Below, one piece after another: positions 13,165 to 34,527 of a stretch of 39,530 nt of DNA (position 1 is its first letter; each line of letters opens with the position of its first letter). The stretch is from a virus. Where the stretch lies: positions 1 through 39,530 of the IMG/VR virus record IMGVR_UViG_3300048838_000379, one strand, 5' to 3'. A model generated the notes under the pieces. That model searched no databases, was not told where the DNA came from, and saw only the letters and a list, made by a program, of their open reading frames with translations. Position numbers and translations under genes: made by a program.

Positions 13165-13590
13165 ATGGCAACGAAAGCGCGCGCTGGTGTAGGCGCAACA
13201 CTGAGCATGGGCAACGGCGCCAGCCCGGAAGTATTCACCGCCGTCGCCGGCATCGTGAATCTGAGCGGCCCGGAGCTGAGCGTCGAGGAACTCGAAGCGA
13301 CCAGCCTCGACAGCACCGGTGGCTACAAGGAGTACATCCCCGGCATGAAAGACGGCGGCGCCGTTTCGTTCACGATGCATTTCTCGAACGATGCGCAACA
13401 GCGCAGCCTGCGCGGCAAGCTGGGCGCCGCCACGACCACCAACTTTCGCGTGACGCTGCCGACCAGCCCGGTCTGTACCATCAACTTTGCAGCCAACCTG
13501 ACCAACTGGTCCCAGGCCACCGAGGCGAATGCACCGATGACCGCCGACGTGAACCTCAAGATCAGCGGCGCGCCCGTTTTCACCCCGTAA
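13165..13590 (+). CDS. Major tail tube protein
   Basis: 141 residues, GGAG upstream of ATG at 13165. Its location between the tail terminator and the chaperones, its size and its beta-rich pattern fit the siphovirus tube subunit; hexameric rings stack around the tape measure. Recognisable pieces are VEELEATSLDSTGGYKEYIPG near residues 40-60, the MHFSNDAQQRSL segment, FRVTLPTSP near residue 93 and the final EANAPMTADVNLKISG. The same motifs recur, in the same order, in the N-terminal 140 residues of the 646-residue protein at 23679-25619, so the phage encodes two tube-type proteins. Confidence 0.88.
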   Translation: MATKARAGVGATLSMGNGASPEVFTAVAGIVNLSGPELSVEELEATSLDSTGGYKEYIPGMKDGGAVSFTMHFSNDAQQRSLRGKLGAATTTNFRVTLPTSPVCTINFAANLTNWSQATEANAPMTADVNLKISGAPVFTP

Positions 13591-23164: not shown

Positions 23165-23677
23165 ATGCTAGATCCCGAACAACTGCGGCGTTTTGTCGTT
23201 CGCCCGACCCTCGAGGAATTGGGACTGTGGACGCAGGCGGCCGAAAACTTGGTCATGGGCACCGCCGCCCAGGAAAGCCACCTGACCTACATCGACCAGA
23301 AGGAACCAGCCGGGCGCCGGCCGCGCATCGGCCCTGGCCTCGGCCTTTGGCAGATGGAAGCGGCCACCCACAACGACATCTGGCAAAACTGGCTGGCCCA
23401 CAAGCCCGGCCTCGGCGTCAGGATTCTGCAGGTCGCCAATGTCTGGACGAAAGCCGCATCGCCATTTTCCGTCGATCCCGGCGTGCTGGTTTACAATTTG
23501 CGCTATGGCGCCGCGATGTGCCGGATCCACTACCGACGCCGCCCGGAACCGCTGCCGGCCGCGAACGACCTCGCCGGCCTGGCTGATTACTGGAAGCGCC
23601 ACTACAACACCCGCGCCGGCGCGGGCCGAGCCGAGCAATTCGTCGCCAATTACCGGCGGCACATAGGAGAGGCATGA
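23165..23677 (+). CDS. Lysozyme-like / lytic transglycosylase-like protein
   Basis: 170 residues. The N-terminal NLVMGTAAQESHLTYIDQ places a Glu (E37) after a small-residue helix, as in the catalytic Glu of lysozyme/SLT-type folds. It is followed by GPGLGLWQMEAATHNDIWQNW, resembling the G-x-x-Q-x-E segment that lines the groove. VYNLRYGAAMCRIHYRR and YWKRHYNTRAGAG are conserved-looking. I have seen this pattern in phage proteins called transglycosylase or virion hydrolase. It has no signal peptide or membrane segment. It may be a virion-associated muralytic enzyme (it follows the tail tip) or the endolysin, since no other lysin candidate exists. The catalytic role is inferred. Confidence 0.6.
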   Translation: MLDPEQLRRFVVRPTLEELGLWTQAAENLVMGTAAQESHLTYIDQKEPAGRRPRIGPGLGLWQMEAATHNDIWQNWLAHKPGLGVRILQVANVWTKAASPFSVDPGVLVYNLRYGAAMCRIHYRRRPEPLPAANDLAGLADYWKRHYNTRAGAGRAEQFVANYRRHIGEA

Positions 23678-23678
23678 C

Positions 23679-25619
23679 ATGGCAACGAAAGCACGCGCCG
23701 GAGTCGGCGCTACGTTTGAGGTGGATACCGGCAGCGGATACAGCTATGTGGCCGACCTGGTCACCATCGGCGGGCCAGAAGCATCTGCCGAACAGGTGGA
23801 AGCGACCAGCCTCGATAGCACCGGCGGGTACAAGGAATACATCCCAGGCGCCCTGGACGGCGGGACCATCAGCCTGACGCTGCGGTTTAACAACGGCCAG
23901 GCGCAGCGCCAAATGCGGGCGCTGGTCGGTAGCATCACCCTGGCGCATTTCCGTATCACCCTGCCGACCAGCCCGATGGCAACCTACATGCTCGACGGCA
24001 ACGTAACAGCATGGACGCAAAGCGCCGAAGCGAATGCGCCGATGGAAGCCGAGATAACCATCAAGGCCAGCGGGCGCATCAACTGGACTGTCGTGGCGTC
24101 ATTCGCGCCGCCGACGACATTATCGCAAACCATCACCAGCCAAAGCGCAAATGGGCACGATTCACCGACAAGCGGATACGTCGTGCCGATTTCGACAATA
24201 AACTCACAGGCCGGTTATTCTCAAACCACACTCGACTCCGGGGCGATTCAGCATTTCTCTTTTGTCGACAGCGGGATCAACATCAGAAAAAACGCGGTTA
24301 TAACTTCCGCCGTATTGCGATTCAAATCGGTTTCCCCAGGCGCGAATGCCATCGCCGCCGGCGGGCGGTTTTATGCAAAAAAGGTCGGGCAAGCCACAAC
24401 GGTGGTGAACACCAACGCGGGAAATGAGTGGTACGCAACAGCGGGAGTGTTGACGACCGCCTATGTTGAGTGGACACCGGCGGCGGGAACCATAAATATT
24501 GACGTGGCGCCGCTGATTAACGAACTGCTGCTGTCGTCCGAGTGGGATGAAACGAACGGAAAAATACAGTTTATCTATCGGCTGAATGGCGCACAAAATG
24601 TGCACGTCGATTCGACATGGTCCGTAAATTTTGACCGCTACGATGGCGGCGCCTATTTATTCAATCTGACGATAATTTATAACGACACCGCCAACCCGGA
24701 AACCGGCGCGATCCGCGATGGATTCGTGATCAACTATCTGCCGGTAAACGCCAACGATTGCACCGTGGTCAATACGCTGCGATTCGTCGTGCAAAACAAT
24801 GCCAACGGCAGAGAGAGCACGACAATTGTGGCGCCAGTGCCGGCGTCGTTCACATCAACAACCCGCGACACGTCACGACAAACCATAAAGATCAACGGAG
24901 GCCTGGCCGAGCTACATGCAACCTGGGCAAATCCAACGCCGCAGGCGCGCATGTTTGGGCGCAAGTTTACCGATCACCCGGATTTCACCTCGGCCGATCC
25001 ATCAGCGTCGTTACTGCGAGACTTGGAACAATCGTATGCGCCAAATGACCGCTATCACGATGGATGGTTATTTGAGCCAACCCGAAACGATTACCTGTGG
25101 GTGTTCGCTACGGAATGGACGAGCGGGGATGTGCTTAACTCATGGTGGGACTTGTGGAATTACCCAACCTATTTCAGTGACTCGTCCACCTGGCAATCGG
25201 CCATGTTTCTGACTACCGCGCCCGCTACGGGCACCATCGAGTTGGACATGCAAACAGGTCAACGCACGGTGGCGAGCATCTCAGGTCTGACAGCAGGCGC
25301 AGGGCGCACACTGCGCGGCGCGGTCATGTGGGACCACGTCGCCGCGGCGTGGCGGTATAAATTTGTAGTGGAAGATTCCAACGGTGCCACGCTGGTCGAG
25401 AGGGCTGGCACCCTGAGCGCACCCCGCGTTTATCCGCGTACCGAAATCGATCAGCGATGGCTGGTCGGGTTTCGTTTGGATGGCGGTGCGCGCCTATTCG
25501 GGCACATCTTTATCGAGTGGCGCGGCACCGCTGCCGCGATATGGGAAAGTACAGCGGATCAGATGGGCACGGCGTGGATCAAGGGCATTAAATCGATCGA
25601 CCCACGGTTAATGGCATGA
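23679..25619 (+). CDS. Second tail-tube-like protein fused to a large C-terminal region
   Basis: 646 residues. Residues 1-140 are clearly homologous to the tail tube protein at 13165: both start MATKARAGVGAT and share EATSLDSTGGYKEYIPG, an R/H-F-x-N-x-x-A/Q-QR segment, ITLPTSP or VTLPTSP, and EANAPM-x-A. After residue ~140 comes an unrelated ~500-residue region. It begins with a jelly-roll-like stretch (~150-345; SGINIRKNAVITSAVLRFKSV, INIDVAPLINELL), then Trp/Tyr-rich beta segments (WLFEPTRNDYLWVFATEW, FLTTAPATGTIELDM, HIFIEWRGTAAAIW) suggestive of carbohydrate binding. The region from ~24100 to ~25300 is visibly AT-richer than its neighbours, suggesting acquisition. A decorated tube subunit or tail side-fibre is the most economical reading. 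Confidence 0.78.
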   Translation: MATKARAGVGATFEVDTGSGYSYVADLVTIGGPEASAEQVEATSLDSTGGYKEYIPGALDGGTISLTLRFNNGQAQRQMRALVGSITLAHFRITLPTSPMATYMLDGNVTAWTQSAEANAPMEAEITIKASGRINWTVVASFAPPTTLSQTITSQSANGHDSPTSGYVVPISTINSQAGYSQTTLDSGAIQHFSFVDSGINIRKNAVITSAVLRFKSVSPGANAIAAGGRFYAKKVGQATTVVNTNAGNEWYATAGVLTTAYVEWTPAAGTINIDVAPLINELLLSSEWDETNGKIQFIYRLNGAQNVHVDSTWSVNFDRYDGGAYLFNLTIIYNDTANPETGAIRDGFVINYLPVNANDCTVVNTLRFVVQNNANGRESTTIVAPVPASFTSTTRDTSRQTIKINGGLAELHATWANPTPQARMFGRKFTDHPDFTSADPSASLLRDLEQSYAPNDRYHDGWLFEPTRNDYLWVFATEWTSGDVLNSWWDLWNYPTYFSDSSTWQSAMFLTTAPATGTIELDMQTGQRTVASISGLTAGAGRTLRGAVMWDHVAAAWRYKFVVEDSNGATLVERAGTLSAPRVYPRTEIDQRWLVGFRLDGGARLFGHIFIEWRGTAAAIWESTADQMGTAWIKGIKSIDPRLMA

Positions 25620-26116
25620 TCAAGGCGACGGTGGCGATGGTATTGATCTGCGGATTTTCGCAGGCGGCCATCGCCGCCAAGCTGCGCCTTGCCGGCGGCG
25701 CCGGCCTCGCCGACCTCGAGCACCTGCACGAAGCCGGGCCGGTGATCGAGGCCGCCATCGAGCACCCGGTCGGCCACGGCGCCTGGCGCACCACGCTGGC
25801 CTGGATCGGCGCGCAGGAGGTTAGAACCAGCGGCACCCGCAGCCAGCGCGGCACCATCGGCGACTATTGGATGGCCGGCGCGCAGGGCATTTACCGGCAA
25901 CCGGTCGGCCGGGCCACCCTCGAGGCCGGCGCCGGGATCGCCTGGCGCACCGAAGCCCGCAACGTCGACTACCTGCTGCCGAACCGGGCCAATTTCGACC
26001 TGACCCTCGGCCTGCGCATCGGCCGCACCACCCTCGAGCTGCGCCACCTGAGCAACGCCTGGACCAGGGACAGCAACCGCGGCCAGAACTGGCTGCAGGT
26101 CGGCCTGGCATTCTGA
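25616..26116 (+). CDS. PagL-like outer-membrane lipid A deacylase homologue
   Basis: 166 residues with a convincing Sec signal (IKATVAMVLICGFSQAAIAA, cleavage after AIA-A near residue 20). The mature ~145 residues alternate polar and hydrophobic positions in strands (LRLAGGAGLADLEHL, WRTTLAWIGAQEV, YWMAGAQGIYRQ, ATLEAGAGIAWRTEA, FDLTLGLRIG) as in an eight-stranded barrel, ending in LQVGLAF with a terminal Phe. Near the end TLELRHLSNAW followed by NRGQNW matches the H-x-S-N-A ... N-x-G signature of PagL-type lipid A 3-O-deacylases, whose His and Ser are catalytic. The third catalytic acid (Glu in Pseudomonas PagL) is not obvious; the position I would align with it appears to be Asn. It could alter host LPS or simply occupy the outer membrane. 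The start overlaps the previous stop. Confidence 0.72.
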   Translation: MIKATVAMVLICGFSQAAIAAKLRLAGGAGLADLEHLHEAGPVIEAAIEHPVGHGAWRTTLAWIGAQEVRTSGTRSQRGTIGDYWMAGAQGIYRQPVGRATLEAGAGIAWRTEARNVDYLLPNRANFDLTLGLRIGRTTLELRHLSNAWTRDSNRGQNWLQVGLAF

Positions 26117-26173: not shown

Positions 26174-26767
26174 ATGCAGACCCGAATCGCCGCCCTGCTG
26201 CTCGCCCTGATCGCCGCCACCGCCGGCGCGCAGACCGCCGGCACCGTGACATTTACCGCCCAGGCCACCACCGGCAACGGATCGGTAACGCCCGTGTTGA
26301 CCTGGTCGACGGCGCCCGCCGCAACATCCTGCACCGCCGGCGGCAACTGGACCGGCACCAAGGCCGCGGCCGGCACCGAAACGCTGCCAGCGATCGCCAC
26401 CAGCGCCACCTACACGATCACCTGCAACTGGCCCGACACCTCGGCGCTGGTTTCGTGGACCCCGCCGACGCAGAACACCGACGGCACGGCCTACGCGACG
26501 CCCAAGCTGACCCGGATCCTTTACGGCAGGACCGCGACCACCCTCACGCTGACGCAGGATGTGCTCGAACCGGCGACCTCTTACCAATTTACCGGCCTGG
26601 CCGCCGGCGCGTGGTATTTCGGCGTCAAGGCGGTAAACCAGGCCGATCGGGAATCCGCCCTGAGCAGCATCGCCACGAAAACACTCGGCACCGGCACCAG
26701 CACGAAATCGGTCGGCATCACCGTCAACGCCCTGCCGCTGCCGCCCACCGGCCTGACCGTGCAATGA
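26174..26767 (+). CDS. Secreted protein with fibronectin III-like domain
   Basis: 197 residues with a clear signal peptide (QTRIAALLLALIAATAGAQ, cleavage near residue 19) and GGAGG before the ATG. Residues ~20-95 form a Thr/Ala-rich beta domain with two cysteines (TSCTAGG, TITCNW) that could make a disulfide. Residues ~100-170 resemble an FN3 domain (LTRILYGRT ... YQFTGLAAGAWYFGVKAVNQADRESALSSI). The C-terminus ends PLPPTGLTVQ, a sequence typical of the start of another FN3 domain, so the protein may be truncated or simply end there. It would be periplasmic or outer-surface. Its job is unknown; it sits with other exported proteins. Confidence 0.65.
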   Translation: MQTRIAALLLALIAATAGAQTAGTVTFTAQATTGNGSVTPVLTWSTAPAATSCTAGGNWTGTKAAAGTETLPAIATSATYTITCNWPDTSALVSWTPPTQNTDGTAYATPKLTRILYGRTATTLTLTQDVLEPATSYQFTGLAAGAWYFGVKAVNQADRESALSSIATKTLGTGTSTKSVGITVNALPLPPTGLTVQ

Positions 26768-28994: not shown

Positions 28995-29049
28995 GGCATC
29001 GTCGGCCCGCATCGAGGATCGTCGCGCCAGCCGCCCGGCCGGCCAGGTA

Positions 29050-29164
29050 ACCGCCAGGCGGGCGAAACATTACCATTTCACTGAACGGCAAAAAAAGGCT
29101 TGCAGGTAGGCAAAAGTAGGCGCAATGTCGAAACCGTAGAGCAAGCCACCACCACCAACCGGAG
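29050..29164 (+). repeat. Duplicated leader/promoter module, copy 1
   Basis: About 115 bases that recur at 34417-34527. It starts with the 11-base palindrome CCGCCAGGCGG (29051-29061) and continues with AAACATTACCATTTCA. After a diverged A-rich spacer it includes a 39-base block identical in both copies (29116-29154), ending just before a GGAG ribosome-binding site. Sequence upstream of the palindrome is unrelated between the two copies, so the shared part has sharp edges. Confidence 0.88.
29100..29128 (+). promoter_or_regulatory. Putative early promoter, copy 1
   Basis: Inside the duplicated module, TTGCAG (29100-29105) is followed after 17 bases by CAATGT (29123-29128). The first resembles a -35 box; the second is a poor -10 match. 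Conservation with the other copy, which has TTGACG at the same place, and location after a gene-free region support a promoter or operator. A phage- or host-specific factor may be needed. Confidence 0.45.
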
Positions 29165-29171
29165 AGACAAA

Positions 29172-34210: not shown

Positions 34211-34485
34211 GCACCGGCACCCGGTACATCCGCATCACGCTGACCATCCCGCAGGCCCGCGGCCTGCTGGCCCTGGTCGGGCAGGGCGCCGCCGACGCCA
34301 GGGAATACCGCGCCTGGGCACGCGCCACCCTGGGCGCGCCGGCGAGCGAGGGCGCCGCCTACCGGGCCGCGGGCAAGCTGCAGGCCGCGGTCGAGGCCCG
34401 CAGATCCACCCGAAAAACCGCCAGGCGGGCAAACATTACCATTTCAAATAAAGGCAAGAAACCGCTTGACGGTAGGCAATGGTAG
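34207..34485 (+). CDS. Small basic protein overlapping the promoter module
   Basis: 92 residues. The start overlaps the previous stop (ATGA). Residues ~5-60 look protein-like (YIRITLTIPQARGLLALVGQGAADAREYRAW ... YRAAGKLQAAVEA). The last ~22 codons run through the palindrome and spacer of promoter module copy 2, including sequence that is non-coding in copy 1. Either the protein really extends there or the stop is simply the first one reached. Function unknown. Confidence 0.55.
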   Translation: MSTGTRYIRITLTIPQARGLLALVGQGAADAREYRAWARATLGAPASEGAAYRAAGKLQAAVEARRSTRKTARRANITISNKGKKPLDGRQW

Positions 34486-34527
34486 GCGCAATGTCGAAAC
34501 CGTAGAGCAAGCCACCACCAACCGGAG
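34417..34527 (+). repeat. Duplicated leader/promoter module, copy 2
   Basis: Direct repeat of 29050-29164. Palindrome CCGCCAGGCGG lies at 34418-34428, followed by AAACATTACCATTTCA. The 39-base identical block is at 34482-34520, ending at an ACCGGAG ribosome-binding site. The spacing from palindrome to -35-like box differs by only one base between copies (48 against 49). Confidence 0.88.
34466..34494 (+). promoter_or_regulatory. Putative early promoter, copy 2
   Basis: TTGACG (34466-34471), a good -35 match, is followed by 17 bases and CAATGT (34489-34494), a weak -10. Both elements and spacing are kept in copy 1. The upstream palindrome could be an operator. This would drive the second early unit beginning at 34535. 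Confidence 0.5.

Follow-up and report, generated by a model that had tools for sequence, protein, structure and literature searches.

A second tail tube-like gene with a long C-terminal extension in a phage genome: a candidate carrier of tube-borne adhesins

The window analysed here is a complete virus record of 39,530 bases (IMGVR_UViG_3300048838_000379), in which exactly two matches of the tail tube protein (TTP) type were found (Table 1). The ordinary TTP matched PF16461 at 41.4 bits (cut-off 26.1) and phrog_158 in the Pfam and PHROG profile searches. The second protein matched phrog_158 with its N-terminal part (E=1.5e-17), and it scored 27.3 bits against PF16460, marginally below the curated cut-off of 28.4. 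The head genes are followed by a tail terminator-like gene, the TTP gene, two chaperone-like genes, the tape measure protein gene, and the genes for a 139-aa protein, the 1804-aa tip protein, the lysozyme-like protein, and the second tube-like protein. The starts of the two tube genes lie 10.5 kb apart; the second is a separate reading frame with its own start downstream, not a frameshift product of the TTP gene. Thus, a plain TTP and a tube domain with an extra C-terminal region are both encoded in this phage. The sequence-only reading had delimited the two frames identically (23679-25619 and 13165-13590) and had located the second about 10 kb from the tube gene, after the tip and lysozyme-like genes, which agrees with the distance and gene order given here.

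Table 1. Coordinates of the two tube-like genes, their parts, and the neighbouring tail genes in the window
Feature	Positions	Strand	Basis or remark
Second tube-like gene, 646 aa, ATG start	23679..25619 (incl. stop)	+	ORF; 665-aa orthologue at the equivalent locus
N-terminal tail tube domain (N-domain), residues 1-140 (homology detectable to ~132)	23679..24098	+	Identity to TTP; tube fold
C-part, ~506 residues, proposed exposed host-contact module	24099..25616	+	GC3 shift, Trp content; orthologue is the only relative
Predicted beta2-beta3 (inter-ring) loop, residues 35-62	23781..23864	+	22/28 identical to TTP
Ordinary tail tube protein (TTP), 141 aa	13165..13590	+	PF16461 above cut-off; phrog_158
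Tail tip protein, 1804 aa	17738..23152	+	C-terminal region divergent within the phage pair, like the C-part
Lysozyme-like gene, directly upstream of the second tube gene	23165..23677	+	phrog_3108, function unnamed in PHROGs

The N-terminus of the second protein had been described as a repeat of the TTP, and the alignment of both N-termini bears this out. Residues 1-132 of the second protein and 1-135 of the TTP share 73 of 135 positions (54%) with 3 gap positions (BLASTP, E=1e-47), and the shared stretch stops at about residue 132-135 of the second protein. The large unrelated region said to follow was recovered as well, as about 500 residues with no known relative beyond the orthologue. Consensus matches for a promoter or terminator belonging to the second tube gene were approximately as numerous as in shuffled sequences. 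Additionally, a comparison of the ribosome-binding regions showed 15 of 40 upstream bases in agreement, with nothing convincing as a duplicated element beyond the common TAGGAG.

The orthologue, a 665-aa protein, was found in the related contig IMGVR_UViG_3300048588_000101, at the equivalent locus after the equivalent lysozyme-like gene. Between the two phages, the TTP is 97% identical, the N-domain about 71%, and the C-part about 35-39%, with the tip protein at 82% and the 139-aa protein at 74%. The dN/dS estimates (Nei-Gojobori), rough values from a single phage pair, were 0.20 for the N-domain, indicating purifying selection, and 0.06 for the TTP; in the C-part, synonymous sites are saturated between the two phages. 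Both second tube proteins, the two sequences that make up the known family, end in the conserved motif DPRLMA. A tree of 17 tube domains groups the second copies with each other (97/97), the TTPs with each other (93/84), and all four together (92/95). The duplication therefore occurred in this lineage ahead of the separation of the two phages, and both copies have been kept since. The orthologue and the N-domain dN/dS support the view that the second tube gene is a maintained gene. The rapid divergence of the C-part would also suit a decaying duplicate or a functionless chance fusion; however, the frame is open, an orthologue occupies the equivalent locus, and both the N-domain dN/dS and the DPRLMA end speak for constraint, so that we regard decay as highly improbable.

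Several other features of the genome were recorded. The frame at 25616-26116, whose start overlaps the stop codon of the second tube gene, encodes a PagL-like lipid A 3-O-deacylase (PF09411, 29.1 bits, cut-off 23) that has an RHLSNAW motif and a signal-like N-terminus and is 69% identical in the relative. The occurrence of such a lipid A modifier next to a putative adhesin may indicate that LPS is the receptor and that later phages are excluded. The next frame, 26174-26767, encodes a 197-aa protein that is conserved in the relative, with a signal-like N-terminus and an FN3 match at 22.4 bits, below the cut-off of 25. Two stretches of about 110-120 bases, at ~29049-29169 and ~34414-34525, each match both places in the relative at 86-89%, so that both phages may have a repeated element near 29 kb and 34.5 kb. 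At the other end of the window, upstream of the terminase gene, the frame at 10-1365 matches a fusion of a ParB-like domain and a DNA methyltransferase (phrog_498, E=9e-142).

We then considered how rare the fused copy is. The tube profile matched 14 of 17 viral records; the relative carries two copies, and the other 13 carry one each, of about 140 aa. Many of these records are fragments, so the absence of a second copy from them is weak evidence. All 31 phage records that matched the TTP did so at a single locus. A PF16461-type tube gene occurs in 17 of 398 Pseudomonadota genomes, always in open frames of 137-250 aa. No other long fused copy was found among the 13 further related contigs, the 31 phage records, and the 17 TTP-bearing bacterial genomes. 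When the full second protein was submitted as a single query against the viral contigs and phage records, it returned N-domain matches to ordinary TTPs or nothing. The lysozyme-like gene gave the same picture: no TTP-like frame follows it in the other phages that carry it, and a PF16461 search of 11 records with this gene had the relative as its sole match. The accessible portion of the literature on mycobacteriophage tail-tip clusters describes no such fused protein. With tube genes of about 140 aa or 137-250 aa elsewhere, the long fused paralogue is rare in the searchable data. As a separate observation, one bacterial genome (G414, C19:56740-57495) has two adjacent PF16461-type matches (153 and 140 aa), which may represent a tube gene duplicated in tandem within a prophage.

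For the C-part, submitted whole and as two sections, the orthologue was the only match in viral contigs, phage sequences, Pfam, PHROG, NCBIfam, and the PDB, and the label adhesin-like given by the sequence-only reading thus found no backing from any of these sources. The structure models of the C-part had pLDDT mostly below 65 and no significant Foldseek match, and residues 334-646 gave nothing under E=0.001. Two candidate folds were discarded. Neither a DNRLRE-type beta-sandwich at residues ~195-335 nor a lectin-like sandwich at ~475-635 had a supporting sequence match, and the second also falls within the range covered by that Foldseek result.

The composition of the gene changes close to the fusion point. 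Near residue 140, GC3 drops from about 0.8 to about 0.62; the only other dip is smaller and occurs at the end of the tip gene. In the second tube gene of the relative, GC3 shifts in the same direction (0.78 to 0.68). Trp makes up 3.6% of the C-part (3.1% in the relative) versus 0.5-1.8% of the other structural proteins compared. The C-part is also the least conserved structural region between the two phages, and the C-terminal part of the tip protein ranks next. In that protein, residues ~1300-1804 are 48% identical between the phages and have a lower GC at the end, parallel to the C-part. Fast divergence, the compositional shift, and Trp richness point to the C-part as a putative host-contact module. 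These features also bear on the possibility that the protein stays out of the virion and acts inside the infected cell, for example by titrating or regulating tail assembly. A C-part of 500 residues that is Trp-rich and changes fast, encoded within the tail block, suits a surface role better, and we consider an intracellular function quite improbable.

For the N-domain, an AlphaFold2 model reached pLDDT of about 70-84 across the beta-sandwich, with low values in loop 35-60. Its predicted fold is the tube beta-sandwich with a helix and a long beta2-beta3 loop. The model of residues 1-142 matched the lambda gpV, GTA, and monocin tube proteins in Foldseek (E=4.6e-6), with Z of 11-13 and rmsd of 4-7 Å over about 120-130 residues against tube structures. 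In most solved tubes, the beta2-beta3 loop provides the main inter-ring contacts, the N-terminus contributes a smaller share of them, and beta2-beta5.2 is a within-ring contact (PMC8718954). In T5, SPP1, and lambda, tubes fail to form or to grow when the loop is deleted or mutated, and in monomeric tube proteins it is a dynamic element (PMC8718954).

Identity to the TTP is unevenly spread over these segments, which were assigned on the predicted model and not on a solved structure: ten of the first ten residues and 22 of 28 in the predicted beta2-beta3 loop are identical, against 11 of 29 in strands beta2 and beta5 and 30 of 65 at the remaining positions. The inter-ring elements (N-arm and beta2-beta3 loop) thus retain 32 of 38 identities versus 41 of 94 elsewhere (Fisher p=1.7e-5). 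Part of this pattern is expected, as the loop is the best-conserved part of the whole family. The between-ring excess nevertheless persisted after regression on family conservation (circular-shift p=0.015), whereas the corresponding within-ring deficit was not significant (p=0.13). Additionally, the second copy keeps 17 of the 21 positions that are 80%-conserved across the TTPs of other phages, and the TTP itself keeps 15. It is a reasonable reading that the N-domain has preserved the ability to stack on tube rings. The predicted intra-ring strands are no more identical to the TTP than those of the TTPs of other phages, and with only 11 of 29 identical positions there is no guarantee that the second protein could share a ring with the TTP.

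The retained elements also weigh on a reading in which the tube domain is an outside attachment point on the tail or tip, so that the protein is a fibre beyond the tube lattice. The tip-like gene position and divergence would fit a fibre, as would the poorly conserved helix and loop region 71-88 (6 of 18 identical to the TTP). Keeping the family-conserved and stacking positions would, however, be needless for a fibre, and we find this reading unlikely.

With the fold and ring-stacking elements of a tube subunit retained in the N-domain, the protein most likely enters the tube as a minority subunit. Two arrangements were weighed, and we judge it probable that one or the other applies. In both, the gene is a long-standing and maintained duplicate of the TTP gene, joined to a foreign or fast-evolving module of about 500 residues. 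In the first, the product would be scattered among TTP subunits, as are SPP1 gp17.1* and 936 MTP-TpeX. The C-part would leave from the C-terminus, on the outer side in known extended tube proteins, and would form an exposed auxiliary host-binding structure. We favour this arrangement, a minority subunit mixed into the tube with its C-part outside as an auxiliary adhesin, and give it an even chance; presence in the virion, entry into the tube, and host binding are steps that we infer. The structure title of the Hcp2-Hcp3 heterohexamer of the type VI secretion system indicates a precedent for a mixed ring of two tube-fold proteins. Counting against a mixed tube, the gene position and rate of change align with the tip genes and not with the TTP.

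That same alignment argues for the second arrangement and chief rival, one or two homomeric tube rings, most likely beside the tip where assembly starts, with 6 or 12 C-parts as an adhesin collar. The gene directly follows the tip and lysozyme-like genes, the N-domain (71%) diverges like the 139-aa protein (74%) and the tip (82%) and not like the TTP (97%), and the stacking elements were kept while the predicted intra-ring strands diverged. The tube-fold initiator rings of AlgoCIS, one with an extra C-terminal domain, are a precedent (PMC8894135). However, the intra-ring deficit did not reach significance, strand contacts can be main-chain contacts, and in siphophages the precedents for extended subunits come from mixed tubes; the special ring is possible and yet, in our view, rather unlikely. 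Still more doubtful is its most specific form, a dedicated and genetically separate adhesin-bearing ring whose within-ring contacts diverged and whose between-ring contacts were kept, stacked on the ordinary tube. In the literature searched, no description of a tube-borne adhesin collar in siphophages was found. The sequence-only reading had proposed rare tube subunits or a special ring. The kept tube fold, inter-ring elements and family-conserved positions, together with the maintained gene, strengthen that proposal for the tube domain, whereas the adhesin role of the extension is still conjectural.

If either tube-borne arrangement applies, the tail tube would be marked as a site where host-contact modules can be captured. 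In the best-known mixed-tube phages, the extended subunit is made by frameshifting, so that its dose depends on recoding; with a separate duplicate gene, the anchor, the displayed module, and the dose could each evolve on their own. With two similar subunits in one phage, it could also be tested directly how the tube, as it grows from the tip, selects one over the other.

Known systems contain parts of this arrangement. The SPP1 tube combines plain gp17.1 and extended gp17.1* at 3:1 (PMC8718954), and it resembles the present case in that one phage encodes plain and C-terminally extended tube proteins. In SPP1, however, both come from one gene through a ribosomal frameshift and the extension is a single FN3 domain, whereas here a separate duplicate 10.5 kb away carries a diverged tube domain and about 500 further residues. 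The lactococcal 936 phages PhiC0139 and Phi2R06A likewise have a minor extended tube subunit with a large extra module, MTP-TpeX. The extended subunits of PhiC0139 decorate the tail in a spiral, as shown by immunogold (PMC4759559), and a 936 TpeX module binds host cells specifically (PMC6669499). MTP-TpeX arises by a +1 frameshift from mtp and bears a BppA-like carbohydrate-binding module, in contrast to the gene duplication and the C-part without a known relative described here.

Several actinophage clusters have two major tail protein genes (PMC11080557). In Microbacterium phage Camille (L052 2907-6405), the three annotated major tail proteins gp17, gp19, and gp20 are mutually 42-48% identical over about 210-255 residues, and gp19 (410 aa) has a longer C-terminus. 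Camille therefore shares with our phage separate paralogous tube genes, one of them extended, but its genes are of a different tube family, not matched by the tube profile, and lie close together, upstream of the tape measure gene; no explanation for keeping the three paralogues was found in the literature. In AlgoCIS, Alg5 and Alg7 are further tube-fold proteins that form special rings, and Alg7 has the extra C-terminal domain; that system is contractile, and the domain contacts baseplate wedges, not the host (PMC8894135). Lambda gpV, T5 pb6, and JBD30 gp44 are tube subunits with an exposed extra (Ig-like) domain, which is present on every subunit and encoded by a single gene (PMC8718954, PMC11445458). 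Because extended tube subunits (SPP1, 936) and paralogous tube genes (actinophages) are both known, the principle is known in pieces and this is no new kind of system; what sets this case apart from SPP1 and 936 is that a separate, diverged duplicate tube gene carries the extension.
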